DNA from: Arthrobacter alkaliphilus
GTDB lineage: Bacteria > Actinomycetota > Actinomycetes > Actinomycetales > Micrococcaceae
NCBI RefSeq assembly: GCF_021483235.1
Contig: NZ_JAKEEC010000005.1
Coordinates: forward strand, 1-64,000
Length of the DNA stretch: 64,000 bases
Direction of reading: 5' to 3'
Part shown: one piece after another, positions 40,052 through 44,428 of the stretch
Layout: every line of letters starts with the position of its first letter
Position numbering within the stretch: position 1 is the first letter of the stretch
Translations under genes and position numbers: made by a program
The notes under the pieces: model-generated
The model's database searches: none
Seen by the model: only the letters and a program-made list of their open reading frames with translations
What the model was told of the DNA's origin: nothing

Positions 40052-41527
40052 ATGACCATCACCTCCACCGAGAAGCCCGGTACCCCCGTAGTCGCGATCA
40101 ACGACATCGGTACCGCTGAGGACTTCCTCGCAGCTGTCGACGCCACCATCAAATACTTCAACGACGGAGACCTCGTCGAAGGTACCGTCGTCAAGGTCGA
40201 CCGCGACGAAGTTCTGCTCGACATCGGTTACAAGACCGAAGGTGTCATCCCTTCCCGCGAGCTTTCCATCAAGCACGACGTTGACCCCGGGGATGTCGTC
40301 TCCGTCGGCGATCAGGTCGAAGCCCTGGTGCTCACCAAGGAAGACAAAGAAGGCCGACTGATCCTCTCCAAGAAGCGTGCTCAGTACGAGCGTGCCTGGG
40401 GCGACATCGAGAAGGTCAAGGAAGAAGACGGTGTTGTCACCGGTACCGTCATCGAGGTTGTCAAGGGTGGCCTTATCCTCGACATCGGCCTGCGTGGCTT
40501 CCTGCCCGCATCCCTCGTCGAGATGCGCCGCGTCCGCGACCTTGCTCCGTACATCGGCCAGCAGATCGAAGCCAAGATCATCGAACTGGACAAGAACCGC
40601 AACAACGTTGTTCTTTCCCGCCGTGCATGGCTCGAGCAGACCCAGTCCGAGGTTCGCTCCACGTTCCTCAACAAGCTGGAAAAGGGCCAGGTTCGTCCCG
40701 GCGTCGTTTCCTCCATCGTCAACTTCGGTGCATTCGTGGACCTTGGCGGCGTAGACGGCCTGGTTCACGTTTCCGAGCTGTCCTGGAAGCACATCGACCA
40801 CCCGTCCGAGGTTGTCGAGGTTGGCCAGGAAGTCACCGTCGAGGTTCTCGAAGTGGATCTGGACCGCGAGCGCGTGTCCCTGTCCCTCAAGGCCACGCAG
40901 GAAGACCCGTGGCAGACCTTCGCCCGCACCCACGCCCTCGGCCAGGTTGTTCCGGGTAAGGTCACCAAGCTGGTTCCGTTCGGTGCGTTCGTTCGCGTCG
41001 AAGACGGCATCGAAGGCCTCGTCCACATCTCCGAGCTGGCTGTGCGCCACGTTGAGCTTGCTGAGCAGGTTGTCTCCGTTGGCGACGAGCTCTTCGTCAA
41101 GGTCATCGACATCGACCTCGAGCGCCGCCGCATCTCCCTCTCCCTCAAGCAGGCTAACGAGGGCGTTGACGCTGACAGCACCGAGTTCGACCCGGCTCTG
41201 TACGGCATGGCCGCTGAGTACGACGAAGAGGGCAACTACAAGTACCCTGAGGGCTTCGACCCCGAGTCGAACGAATGGCTCGAGGGCTACGAGACGCAGC
41301 GCGCCGCTTGGGAGCAGCAGTACGCTGACGCCCAGGCTCGTTGGGAAGCCCACAAGAAGCAGGTTTCCCAGCACGCTGCTGACGACGCCGCTGCTGCCGC
41401 TTCCGGCGAGGGCGACTCCGGCGCCACCAGCTACTCCTCCGAGCCGGCTGCCACCGAGTCCAACGCGGGCACCCTGGCATCCGACGAGGCCCTCGCAGCT
41501 CTGCGCGAGAAGCTGACCGGCAACTAA
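40052..41527 (+). CDS. rpsA: 30S ribosomal protein S1
   Basis: An acidic RNA-binding protein of 491 aa that helps mRNA bind to the 30S subunit. Four S1 domains are visible, beginning near GTVVKVDRDEVLLDIGYKTEG, GTVIEVVKGGLILDIGLRGFLP, GVVSSIVNFGAFVDLGGVDGLVHVSELSW and GKVTKLVPFGAFVRVEDGIEGLVHISELA. The alanine/glutamate-rich tail is typical of the short actinobacterial S1. Codon use is strongly biased to a few codons, as expected of a highly expressed gene. It is followed by an intrinsic terminator. Confidence 0.97.
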   Translation: MTITSTEKPGTPVVAINDIGTAEDFLAAVDATIKYFNDGDLVEGTVVKVDRDEVLLDIGYKTEGVIPSRELSIKHDVDPGDVVSVGDQVEALVLTKEDKEGRLILSKKRAQYERAWGDIEKVKEEDGVVTGTVIEVVKGGLILDIGLRGFLPASLVEMRRVRDLAPYIGQQIEAKIIELDKNRNNVVLSRRAWLEQTQSEVRSTFLNKLEKGQVRPGVVSSIVNFGAFVDLGGVDGLVHVSELSWKHIDHPSEVVEVGQEVTVEVLEVDLDRERVSLSLKATQEDPWQTFARTHALGQVVPGKVTKLVPFGAFVRVEDGIEGLVHISELAVRHVELAEQVVSVGDELFVKVIDIDLERRRISLSLKQANEGVDADSTEFDPALYGMAAEYDEEGNYKYPEGFDPESNEWLEGYETQRAAWEQQYADAQARWEAHKKQVSQHAADDAAAAASGEGDSGATSYSSEPAATESNAGTLASDEALAALREKLTGN

Positions 41528-41560
41528 TTGCCACTGGCCCGGTTTTCCAGGCCTGATTGA

Positions 41561-41607
41561 AGCGGCCCCTGCGATTCATTCACGAATCGCAGGGGCTGCT
41601 TTGTTTT
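41561..41607 (+). terminator. Intrinsic terminator after rpsA
   Basis: A 17-base stem (AGCGGCCCCTGCGATTC pairs with 41584-41600 with one G-U) closes a 6-base loop and is followed by TTTGTTTT. Confidence 0.9.
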
Positions 41608-41613
41608 CCAAAC

Positions 41614-41668
41614 GCGGGGTCACTTACGGCCCATTCCGGTGCTTCGGATGGGCCGTAAGTGACCCCGC
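41614..41668. repeat. REP-like long palindrome
   Basis: Perfect 21-base arms, 41614-41634 and 41648-41668, begin GCGGGGTCACTTACGG and flank a 13-base centre that itself pairs as CCG/CGG. It stands seven bases after the rpsA terminator and has no U tract. The form is that of a repetitive extragenic palindrome; a genome search is needed to show repetition. Confidence 0.55.
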
Positions 41669-41692
41669 CTTTAACCCGGCGCAGCTAACTAA

Positions 41693-41760
41693 CTGATAAC
41701 GATCTATCAGATAGGTCCCACCTGTTATTCGAGATCCGCTAATCTCCGATTGGTAACCAA
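41693..41760. promoter_or_regulatory. Cluster of small palindromes before a small membrane gene
   Basis: CTGATA and TATCAG flank six bases at 41693-41710. GAGAT and ATCTC are paired around 41731-41746. TTGGTAACCAA lies at 41750-41760. Three spaced palindromes in 70 bases suggest regulator-binding sites upstream of the gene at 41803. Confidence 0.35.
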
Positions 41761-41802
41761 CGGCCCCGGAGTGGTCTCGTGCGGATGGGTGTGATCAGAC
41801 TT

Positions 41803-41991
41803 ATGAACCCCTTGGTTCCTACTTTTCCTGAGGCAGTACTTTCTTTTGCTCCGCTGGCTTTCCTCTTGCTGGCAGCTCTGGCCATCATCACGTTCTACGT
41901 CATCAAGTTGTTCCGAAGGGCAGGATCCAGGGCGCTCCCGCCGGGCTCAGACGGCATGACCGCATCGCGGAATGACCACGATCTGAAATAG
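41803..41991 (+). CDS. Small single-pass membrane protein, 62 aa
   Basis: Starts MNPLVPTFPEAVLSFAPLAFLLLAALAI as one hydrophobic helix, followed by a basic stop-transfer stretch KLFRRAGSR and a polar tail. No family recognised. Its elaborate upstream region suggests a regulated gene. GTG 41788 is an alternative start adding five residues. Confidence 0.5.
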   Translation: MNPLVPTFPEAVLSFAPLAFLLLAALAIITFYVIKLFRRAGSRALPPGSDGMTASRNDHDLK

Positions 41992-42066
41992 GCCGTTTGC
42001 CGGTTCAATGACTAATCCACCATGGGTTCCACCCCGCACAGCGCGCCCGATACCAGTGACACCCAC

Positions 42067-42145
42067 GGACATGCCCCTCCTTGCCAGCCTGGACTGGACA
42101 TATGCCCATTAAGTCCACTGCTCGCGACCAGAGGAGGGCATGTCC
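42067..42145. repeat. Long imperfect inverted repeat
   Basis: GGACATGCCCCTCCT at 42067-42081 pairs with AGGAGGGCATGTCC at 42132-42145, with one bulged C. The 50-base interior contains another pair, GGACT and AGTCC. It ends 11 bases from the yigZ stop, so it may act as its transcription end or be a repeated extragenic element. Confidence 0.5.
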
Positions 42146-42156
42146 CCGCGGAAAGG

Positions 42157-42846
42157 TCAGCCCTGGAGGTCCACCCACTCCGTTCCGCGCAGGTGGAGCT
42201 CCGAGGTGCCGCCCGTCATGGCCGCGAGGCGCTCGACGGCGTCGTCGATTGACGCCTGGTCATCAGGCAAGGCCAAGCGCAGGATGGTTTCTGCGGGTTC
42301 GTAGCTTGCGGCGCCCATGACGTAGCCCGCGGTGCGCAGCTCGTTTTCGAGCCTTCCGGCGGCGTGGTGGGCCACGGCGATATCGCAAATCCGCAAGCGT
42401 CGCCGCTGAACCAGGGGAGCGGCGTCCAACGCCGCCGAGACTGACTCGGAGTATGCACGGACCAGTCCGCCCGCGCCCAGGAGGATCCCGCCGAAATAGC
42501 GTACGACGACGGCACTCACGTCGCTGAGGTCGCTCACCCCGGGCTGTGTCTCGCGTCTGATGAGCGCCTCAAGCATGGGGATGCCGGCAGTTCCGGAAGG
42601 CTCGCCGTCGTCGTTTGATCGCTGGATGCTCCGGTCCGGGCCGAGGACGAATGCCGAGCAATGGTGCCGGGCATCGTGGAATTCCTTGCGCAGCTCCGCA
42701 ACCAGGGCGCGGGCGGCGTCTTCGTCGGGAACGCGGCGCAGCACGGTAATGAAGCGCGAACGCCTGATCTCCAGTTCGTGGCGGAAATCGCTTCCGGGCG
42801 CCAACGTTGTGTACGCGGTCGCCCGGCTTTCTTCCTGTTCTGCCAC
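42157..42846 (-). CDS. yigZ: YigZ/IMPACT-family protein
   Basis: A 229-residue protein of the UPF0029/IMPACT family. The signature block HHCSAFVLGPDRSIQRSNDDGEPSGTAGIPMLEAL is followed by VVVRYFGGILLGAGGLVRAYSESV, then a ferredoxin-like C-terminal domain. Family members bind nucleic acid or ribosomes; the bacterial role is unclear. GTG 42846 is the start. It is divergent from coaE, and the two -10 elements overlap. Confidence 0.9.
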   Translation of the reverse strand: MAEQEESRATAYTTLAPGSDFRHELEIRRSRFITVLRRVPDEDAARALVAELRKEFHDARHHCSAFVLGPDRSIQRSNDDGEPSGTAGIPMLEALIRRETQPGVSDLSDVSAVVVRYFGGILLGAGGLVRAYSESVSAALDAAPLVQRRRLRICDIAVAHHAAGRLENELRTAGYVMGAASYEPAETILRLALPDDQASIDDAVERLAAMTGGTSELHLRGTEWVDLQG

Positions 42847-42852
42847 CGACCC

Positions 42853-42862
42853 AGTCTAGTGT
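42853..42862. promoter_or_regulatory. Overlapping divergent -10 elements of yigZ and coaE
   Basis: On the minus strand TAGACT (42853-42858) is followed by GGGTCG and the yigZ GTG. On the plus strand TAGTGT (42857-42862) is followed by GGAGGG and the coaE GTG at 42869. The two hexamers share two bases, and both transcripts would be leaderless. Confidence 0.55.
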
Positions 42863-42868
42863 GGAGGG

Positions 42869-44089
42869 GTGCTGAAGATTGGACTGACCGGCGGGATCGC
42901 CTCCGGCAAATCGCTTGTGTCCGCGCGCCTGAGGGAATTGGGCGCTGTCTTGATCGACGCCGATGCGCTGGCCCGCGAGGTCGTGGAGCCGGGCACGCCA
43001 GGGTTGGCGGCCGTTGCCGCCGAGTTCGGTGAAGGAATCCTCGACGGCGACGGGCGCCTTGACCGGGCACGGCTCGGCTCGATTGTGTTCGCCCAGCCGG
43101 ATCGCAGGGAAGCGCTCAACGCGATTATCCATCCGCGCGTGCGGGAGCGGGCGGCTGCGATGCTCGGAACCGCGAAACCCGGCGACATCGTCGTCCAGGA
43201 TATTCCGCTGCTGGTCGAGACCGGGCAGGGCAGCAGTTTCCACTTGGTGCTGGTGGTTGATGCCTCGGACGAGGAACGGATCCGGCGCATGACGGAGATC
43301 CGCGGCATGACAGTCGAGGATGCGGTGTCCCGCATGGCCGCGCAGGCCAGCCGGGATGAACGCTTGGCGGCGGCCGACGTCGTGCTGGACAACTCCGGAA
43401 GTGTTGAGGATCTTACGGAGCTCGTGGACACCCTATGGGAAAAACGCTTGGCGCCGTTTGCCCGCAATCTCGCAGCAGGGCGCGCGGCACCAAGAGGGGG
43501 CGGCCCCGTATTGTCCCCGCCGAATCCCGACTGGCCGGCCCAGGCCGGGCGGCTCCTCGCGCGGATCCGGCGGGCAGCACCGGAGGTATTGGGCGCCGAC
43601 CATATCGGTTCGACCGCAGTACCGGGCCTTCCCGCCAAGGACATCATCGACCTGCAGGTGAATGTGTCCTCGCTGGAAGACGCAGACCGGATAGCAGGCG
43701 TCCTGGGTGAGGCCGGCTTCCCGCTGCAAGACCCCTCCGCCCGTGACACCCCCAAGCCGCCGGACCTTGACCCGTCTGTGTGGCAAAAGCGCTTCCATTG
43801 CAACGCGGACCCCGGGCGGCCCGCCAACGTCCATGTCCGGGTACTGGGGAGTCCGGGCTGGCGTTATGCGCTGTTGTTCCGGGATTGGCTCCGCGCCGAC
43901 GCCGACGCGCGGGCGATGTATGCGGCCCTGAAACAGGACCTCGCGGCGCTGCACGCGGACGCCGGCCGGACCTTGGAGTATGCGGAGGCCAAGGAGCCCT
44001 GGTTCACGGAGGTCGCCTGGCCGCTCATGGATGCCTGGGCGGGCAGGACCGGTTGGCAGCCGCCGTCGTACTCCGCGGCACGTGGCTAG
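42869..44089 (+). CDS. coaE: Dephospho-CoA kinase fused to a GrpB domain
   Basis: A two-domain protein of 406 aa. The N-terminal kinase (about residues 1-200) makes CoA from dephospho-CoA and ATP, with P-loop [11 protein letters not shown], substrate Asp in [11 protein letters not shown], and [12 protein letters not shown]. From about residue 210 comes a GrpB/UPF0157 nucleotidyltransferase-like domain: [17 protein letters not shown], then [20 protein letters not shown]. The same fusion occurs in mycobacterial CoaE, where the extra domain supports folding or regulation. The GGAGGG before the GTG start is too close for a normal binding site. Confidence 0.95.
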
Positions 44090-44098
44090 GCGCCAAGC

Positions 44099-44428
44099 AT
44101 GATCCGGAAACGCAGAATCACGCCACACCTCGAGGGACAGCGGCTAGGCGCGGTTCGATGGCTGGCATGGGCCGGCGTCGTCCTCATGGCCGCGGCGGCG
44201 CTGCTGTGGTTCCTGGCCGGCGGCCGCGAGGAGTTCGTCGCCGGGACCCAGCCGCCGACGTGGCGCGTCCTCGTCCCCGCTACGTCTTTCTGGCTCGCCT
44301 GGGCTGCCTGGCTGCTGTCCGGACTGTGGTTCGCCGTCAAGATGTTCCGCTCCATCATGGGGCGGCTCGACGATGGCTGGACCAAGCCCGGCGACGGCGC
44401 CGCGTCAGCCCGCGAACGCGGACAGTAG
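44099..44428 (+). CDS. Small membrane protein between coaE and uvrB, 109 aa
   Basis: A basic N-terminus ([10 protein letters not shown]) precedes two hydrophobic helices ([20 protein letters not shown] and [24 protein letters not shown]) and a charged tail. No family recognised. It starts nine bases after the coaE stop and probably shares its transcript. Confidence 0.65.

Follow-up and report, generated by a model that had tools for sequence, protein, structure and literature searches.

The yigZ-coaE gap and its surroundings

The window, that is the whole 64,000-nucleotide stretch of DNA from the soil bacterium Arthrobacter alkaliphilus analysed here, contains two divergently oriented genes whose GTG start codons are separated by the short sequence CGACCCAGTCTAGTGTGGAGGG (Table 1). 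A Pfam scan assigned UPF0029, which we take to be the YigZ/IMPACT family, to the minus-strand gene, and CoaE plus GrpB to the plus-strand gene, the CoaE proteins of named relatives (Arthrobacter sp. efr-133-TYG-118, A. bambusae and Arthrobacter sp. Hiyo8, among others) being 89-92% identical. The plus-strand gene upstream of the pair (40052-41527) is, by eye, presumably that of a ribosomal protein S1-like product; since yigZ runs in the opposite direction, read-through from this gene into coaE is unlikely, and coaE would be expected to need a promoter of its own.

Table 1. Features of the divergent gap, numbered by position in the window
Feature	Position	Strand	Basis or remark
Whole non-coding stretch between the start codons	42847..42868	none	22-base divergent gap
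yigZ (UPF0029), GTG start	42157..42846	-	ORF and Pfam; transcript start predicted at 42846 (inferred)
coaE (dephospho-CoA kinase, GrpB domain fused), GTG start	42869..44089	+	ORF and Pfam; transcript start predicted at 42869 (inferred)
TAGTGT, predicted coaE -10 element	42857..42862	+	5' end 12 nt ahead of start codon
TAGACT, predicted yigZ -10 element	42853..42858	-	5' end 12 nt ahead of start codon
TA step common to both hexamers (their -12/-11 bases)	42857..42858	none	same two bases in all 67 loci of 23-nt spacing
A at -16 of coaE, the sixth base of the yigZ hexamer and used by that hexamer only	42853..42853		conservation

The sequence-only reading from which this analysis started had described two hexamers, TAGTGT and TAGACT, with two bases in common and each six bases from a GTG, a description that is exact: the spacers occupy 42863-42868 on the coaE side and 42852-42847 on the yigZ side. 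Taken alone, the gap of a single genome is suggestive only, the chance that any one gap contains the four specified A/T bases being roughly 0.001 at the window's G+C content of 0.647. The strict layout, CAY-N6-ANNNTANNNT-N6-RTG, was present at two places in the organism's own 4.12-Mb genome as against one for a reversed control pattern, and at the second of these places (L240) a gene begins on just one side, leaving a true gene pair at one of the two. The notion that the layout is abundant in this genome was dropped, there being no enrichment over the control; the own-genome count proves little by itself, and it is conservation that lifts the layout above chance.

Several further elements were recorded between the S1-like gene and the gap. 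About 35 bases past the stop codon of that gene, at about 41562-41608, a GC-rich hairpin followed by TTTGTTTT looks terminator-like by eye, and was not picked up by a consensus scan of 41500-43000. A perfect 19-base inverted repeat (GGGGTCACTTACGGCCCAT...ATGGGCCGTAAGTGACCCC) lies downstream at 41616-41666, and the 66 bases around it have 17 matches in the same genome when the repeat's own position is counted, every one of them on both strands (34 rows), a result which identifies it as a dispersed palindromic repeat. By eye, a short open frame (about 62 residues) that starts MNPLVPTF and includes a hydrophobic stretch was also apparent at 41803-41991, between the S1-like gene and yigZ. A search of 41400-44400 against Rfam returned no match at the gathering score.

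Conservation and separation of the two boxes in relatives

Related coaE loci were gathered from part of the 146 and 196 matching genomes, giving 239, in 232 of which a start was found by script; the seven that were dropped, lacking a start or motif, were all from Micrococcaceae. Loci identical over 210 bases were removed before counting, and groups were assigned from record titles. The box TANNNT was present at -12/-13 of coaE in 154 of the 158 Micrococcaceae loci, the window included, and in 31/34 loci from other Actinomycetes (Streptomyces, Kitasatospora, Sphaerisporangium, Dietzia, Brevibacterium and Corynebacterium), and in neither of the two Acidimicrobiia loci nor any of the 19 from outside the phylum. 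Among the exceptions within Micrococcaceae, comprising the four misses and the seven dropped loci, the hexamer was located at an alternative start in three and was absent in eight. It was retained in Streptomyces and others in which yigZ was not found alongside.

A divergent yigZ lies upstream of coaE in 138/158 Micrococcaceae loci, and in 134 of these 138 an in-frame yigZ start with TANNNT at -12/-13 was identified, leaving four without. As the motif itself contributed to the choice of start, the fair figure is that for loci with a single in-frame start candidate, 99 of 101 of which carried the box; the corresponding frequency for control CAC/CAT triplets inside the yigZ coding sequence was 13/1996. 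This comparison bears out the claim of a pair of -10-like hexamers that overlap, stand at leaderless spacing and are each conserved in Micrococcaceae, and it makes it credible that both act as leaderless -10 elements.

The 134 loci divide equally: a start-to-start distance of 23 nt with overlapping hexamers is found in 67, and distances of 24-878 nt in the other 67. Loss of either hexamer in relatives that keep the gene pair had been named as refuting the sequence-only reading, and both hexamers are present in all 67 loci with the 23-nt spacing. These 67 represent 35 distinct 22-base gaps, across which no change is seen at the TA, at the outer A and T or at a few adjacent bases, whereas several positions of the spacers differ. 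When extended to the other spacings, the proposed Micrococcaceae comparison upheld a box at each start, TANNNT being present at both in 65/67 separated loci, but not the overlap, which is absent in nearly half of the relatives. All these counts come from related genomes, which are not independent samples.

Where the starts are apart, the base required solely by the partner's box is mostly lost on either side. Among loci with a coaE box at -12, the A at -16 of coaE was found in 67/67 at 23 nt, in 1/55 beyond 30 nt and in 1/15 without yigZ (Fisher p about 3e-34 for 67/67 versus 1/55, uncorrected for relatedness). Likewise, the T on the yigZ side that completes a box of the coaE type was present in 67/67 loci at 23 nt versus 5/67 at other spacings. 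At the narrowest of those spacings (L213, 24 nt) the TA is still common to both boxes and the yigZ box lies one base further from its start. With the addition of only 11 bases the boxes are already apart (L118), AGTCTAGT adjoining yigZ and TAGTCT adjoining coaE; in another separated locus (L017), AGTCTAGT likewise adjoins yigZ, and CTAGTCT adjoins coaE. The TAG or TAA of the hexamer at -12 doubles as an in-frame stop codon for the gene served, both in the window (42853-42862) and in relatives; both boxes always begin TAG or TAA in the 67 loci at 23 nt, and some separated coaE boxes begin TAC or TAT.

Inspection by eye of the longer gaps revealed REP-like repeats of the type GGGCCCACG...GGGTTCCC...GCGGTGGGG, single or in tandem, in L015, L017, L022, L031, L042, L048, L049 and L149. 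These repeats separate the two promoters, a TANNNT box flanking them on either side, which gives the appearance of insertion at the shared CTAG accompanied by a short duplication. In the organism's own genome, a comparable repeat has its end at GGGGACTAG (L240, about 1440-1486).

The history of the register was traced on a quick, single-gene, midpoint-rooted YigZ tree of 133 of the 134 loci, the short L048 being left out. Treated as a two-state character (23 or not), the register required at least 11 changes, resolved as three gains and eight losses at equal costs and identically at a gain cost of 1.5; more lopsided costs gave losses and gains of 11/2, 0/16 and 27/0, the split being dependent on the costs and on the root. 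It appears that the overlap around this CoA-synthesis gene has been gained and dissolved several times, providing a natural series for asking what it costs or benefits either gene to share a -10 element.

The gap as a candidate bidirectional promoter

Bidirectional promoters have been defined as those with divergent starts 7-25 bp apart in PMC10268837, and the commonest distance is given as 18 bp, with 10 and 23 also common, in PMC12825309. Leaderless genes, which according to PMC3160421 make up over a fifth of Actinobacteria genes, are marked by TANNNT about 12 bp before the start, and TANNNT is described as the common -10 element of M. tuberculosis, with no -35 motif, in PMC3898074. Both the 23-bp register and TANNNT as a sign of leaderless expression are thus already known.

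Set beside these precedents, the gap is most probably, at roughly 0.8, one bidirectional core promoter in the 23-bp register, both of whose products are predicted to be leaderless. RNA polymerase with the primary sigma factor would bind in either of two orientations; as the -12/-11 bases of both -10 elements are the same TA step, melting would begin from one place and open outwards in both directions. The transcripts are predicted to start at the respective GTG codons or no more than one or two bases away, and both would then be translated without a leader or a Shine-Dalgarno step. The binding events would exclude each other, yet at ordinary activity both genes would probably be expressed, and strong activation on one side could depress the other. 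It follows from the pattern that, for a pair of opposed TANNNT boxes each at -12, specified bases coincide and agree only at start distances of 23 (sharing TA) or 18 (as TANNNTA), and that the boxes conflict at 14, 19, 22 and 24; other close spacings would also work, all six bases then being required.

The location of the -35 regions inside the opposite coding sequences, also put forward by the sequence-only reading, holds as a matter of geometry, but their existence as recognisable elements was not borne out: the separated promoters showed no obvious conserved block resembling a -35, and when 41500-43000 was scanned for the sigma-70 consensus, with a TTGACA-like element 16-18 bp upstream of the -10, no promoter was reported. 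At the overlapping loci the -35 stretch also codes for the other gene, so that its conservation there says little.

Four other readings of the same evidence were weighed. Next to no credence attaches to the coaE hexamer being the only promoter and the yigZ hexamer a by-product of the TA and chance. Given the coaE hexamer, its minus-strand counterpart admittedly needs just one further base, the A at -16, together with a start codon at the right distance; however, the incidence of that A (67/67 at 23 nt against 1/55 and 1/15 otherwise) argues against coincidence, as do the separated yigZ genes, which keep a TANNNT of their own. A regulator's operator, with the CTAG-centred near-palindrome taking the place of two -10 elements, would accommodate the near symmetry of CAGTCTAGTGTG, the invariance of the extra bases C-17, G-15 and G-10 in loci at 23 nt, and the recurrence of the CTAG core at the yigZ box in 43/67 separated loci and of the whole AGTCTAGTGT in five of those 67, one of them the 24-nt locus L213 in which it still overlaps the coaE box. 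Beyond 30 nt, however, only 4/63 loci have the ten-base element at the yigZ box and 1/55 have the yigZ half of it at the coaE box, whereas the boxes stay at their starts, and the coaE hexamer is kept where no adjoining yigZ was found; the operator was rejected as very improbable, since the boxes persist at separated starts while the ten-base element is mostly lost. It is decidedly unlikely, too, that these are real promoters whose transcripts start a few bases upstream, the purine-rich GGAGGG serving in ribosome binding on a very short leader. That sequence stands directly before the coaE GTG and can be read as a misplaced Shine-Dalgarno, but by abutting the start it lacks the usual spacing, and its bases vary in relatives (TGGAGG, GGTGGG, TGAGGA, GTAGGT, GGAAGC) while the hexamer spacing is constant; GGAGGG as a Shine-Dalgarno was accordingly rejected on both spacing and variability.

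The remaining reading concerns the purpose of the overlap. The footprint of RNA polymerase extends from about -55 to +20, placing the two predicted complexes at 42814-42889 and 42826-42901, overlapping over most of their length, and it follows from this geometry that two polymerases would be unable to occupy the site together, as had been proposed. The step from there to mutually exclusive expression of CoA synthesis and YigZ found no support, and there is no evidence of an exclusive switch. That the overlap was selected in order to act as one is unlikely, although the footprints must overlap and the 23-nt register with both hexamers recurs in 67/134 loci, with three origins on the tree at equal costs. 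We know of no functional opposition between the CoaE and YigZ proteins. The register is lost in many relatives, with eight losses on the tree at equal costs and both boxes kept in 65/67 separated loci, which speaks against a required switch. In E. coli, the basal activity of all five bidirectional promoters tested was too low for them to compete, the partner being repressed once one direction was substantially activated, as set out in PMC12825309; and the divergent leaderless pair prpD/Rv1129c of M. tuberculosis, whatever its spacing, is reported in PMC3898074 as upregulated on both sides in starvation.

The gap is thus better described as a promoter of a known kind, conserved and predicted to be doubly leaderless, than as a switch that silences one gene while the other is on. 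Like the bacterial bidirectional promoters of Warman, Grainger and colleagues, it has opposite-strand -10 elements that overlap, here by two bases, and starts which, as predicted from the start codons, are 23 bp apart and so inside the 7-25 bp range. It differs from them in that both products are predicted to be leaderless, so that the register is set by start codons and readable from DNA, in having a register of 23 as opposed to the commonest 18, and in that its starts are predicted, not mapped. With the leaderless genes of Actinobacteria (PMC3160421, PMC3898074) it has in common the TANNNT about 12 bp before the start and, as in M. tuberculosis, no conserved -35; in the parts of those accounts available such genes are treated one by one, whereas here two would be interlocked back to back. 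The close divergent promoters of M. tuberculosis are likewise actinobacterial and, in prpD/Rv1129c, leaderless, although the -10 overlap itself is not described in the sections available of PMC3898074.

No description of doubly leaderless interlocked promoters was found in the open-licence literature; the founding bidirectional-promoter paper of 2021, outside that scope, may contain one. Within the same literature, the combination of coaE with leaderless starts yielded nothing beyond work on another organism, and no Arthrobacter transcript-start map was apparent in titles or abstract openings. What was not found described in it is an entire intergenic region consisting of two interlocked -10 elements and their spacers, with the register visible as the distance between start codons. 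Bidirectional promoters have so far been found by mapping transcript starts; doubly leaderless pairs would fix the register in the protein-coding annotation, and its evolution would therefore be traceable from sequence alone.

The layout at other gene pairs of the class

When 148 genomes of the class were scanned, 243 sites matched the strict 23 layout and 119 its reversed control; for the strict 18 layout the numbers were 136 and 143. Because reversal turns TA into AT, the control is biased, and the bias is greater for the 18 pattern, which contains two TAs; the registers are therefore not ranked by these counts. The list of 23-layout sites gave 75 of the 243, and all 72 listed from outside the window's family, of 240 such, were fetched. 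Coding-like open reading frames of at least 80 residues flanked 43 of these 72 listed sites on both sides, compared with 16 of 120 control CAY-N22-RTG pairs from the same loci that lacked the two boxes.

The first 20 sites of each register were examined further, having been picked by hand from the lists and not at random. In the 23 register, Pfam families were recognised on both sides in 10 of the 12 pairs scanned, among them LytB with the exonuclease VII large subunit, a pyrroline-5-carboxylate reductase-type protein with a cation efflux protein, YqeY with a calcineurin-like phosphoesterase, a lipoyl ligase-type protein with a GFO-IDH-MocA oxidoreductase, and two pairs of IS200-type and OrfB-IS605 transposases. 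For the 18 layout, open reading frames lay on both sides in 10/20 of the hand-picked sites versus 1/77 control pairs from the same loci, and eight of those ten pairs had Pfam families on both sides.

The occurrence of the layout at these other gene pairs lends support to its being a recurrent architecture. Whether interlocked, doubly leaderless divergent promoters are a standard arrangement of gene pairs in Actinomycetes, with starts 23 (shared TA) or 18 (TANNNTA) apart, which come into being, endure and are broken up by insertions after which each gene retains a TA to itself, is a proposition to which we would give even odds. If it is true, the distance from start to start would read out bidirectional promoters directly from genome sequence, and their gain, loss and cost would be open to study across thousands of genomes without RNA.

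Two observations arose from individual sites. In two genomes belonging to a single actinomycete family (L253 and L254), the IS200-type and OrfB-IS605 transposase genes diverge from a layout of 23 nt with a shared TA. At an 18-nt TANNNTA site (L281), a tetrahydrodipicolinate succinyltransferase-type gene is paired with one for an M20 peptidase, and near-identical site sequences are present in three other genomes of the same family (G361, G380 and G413).
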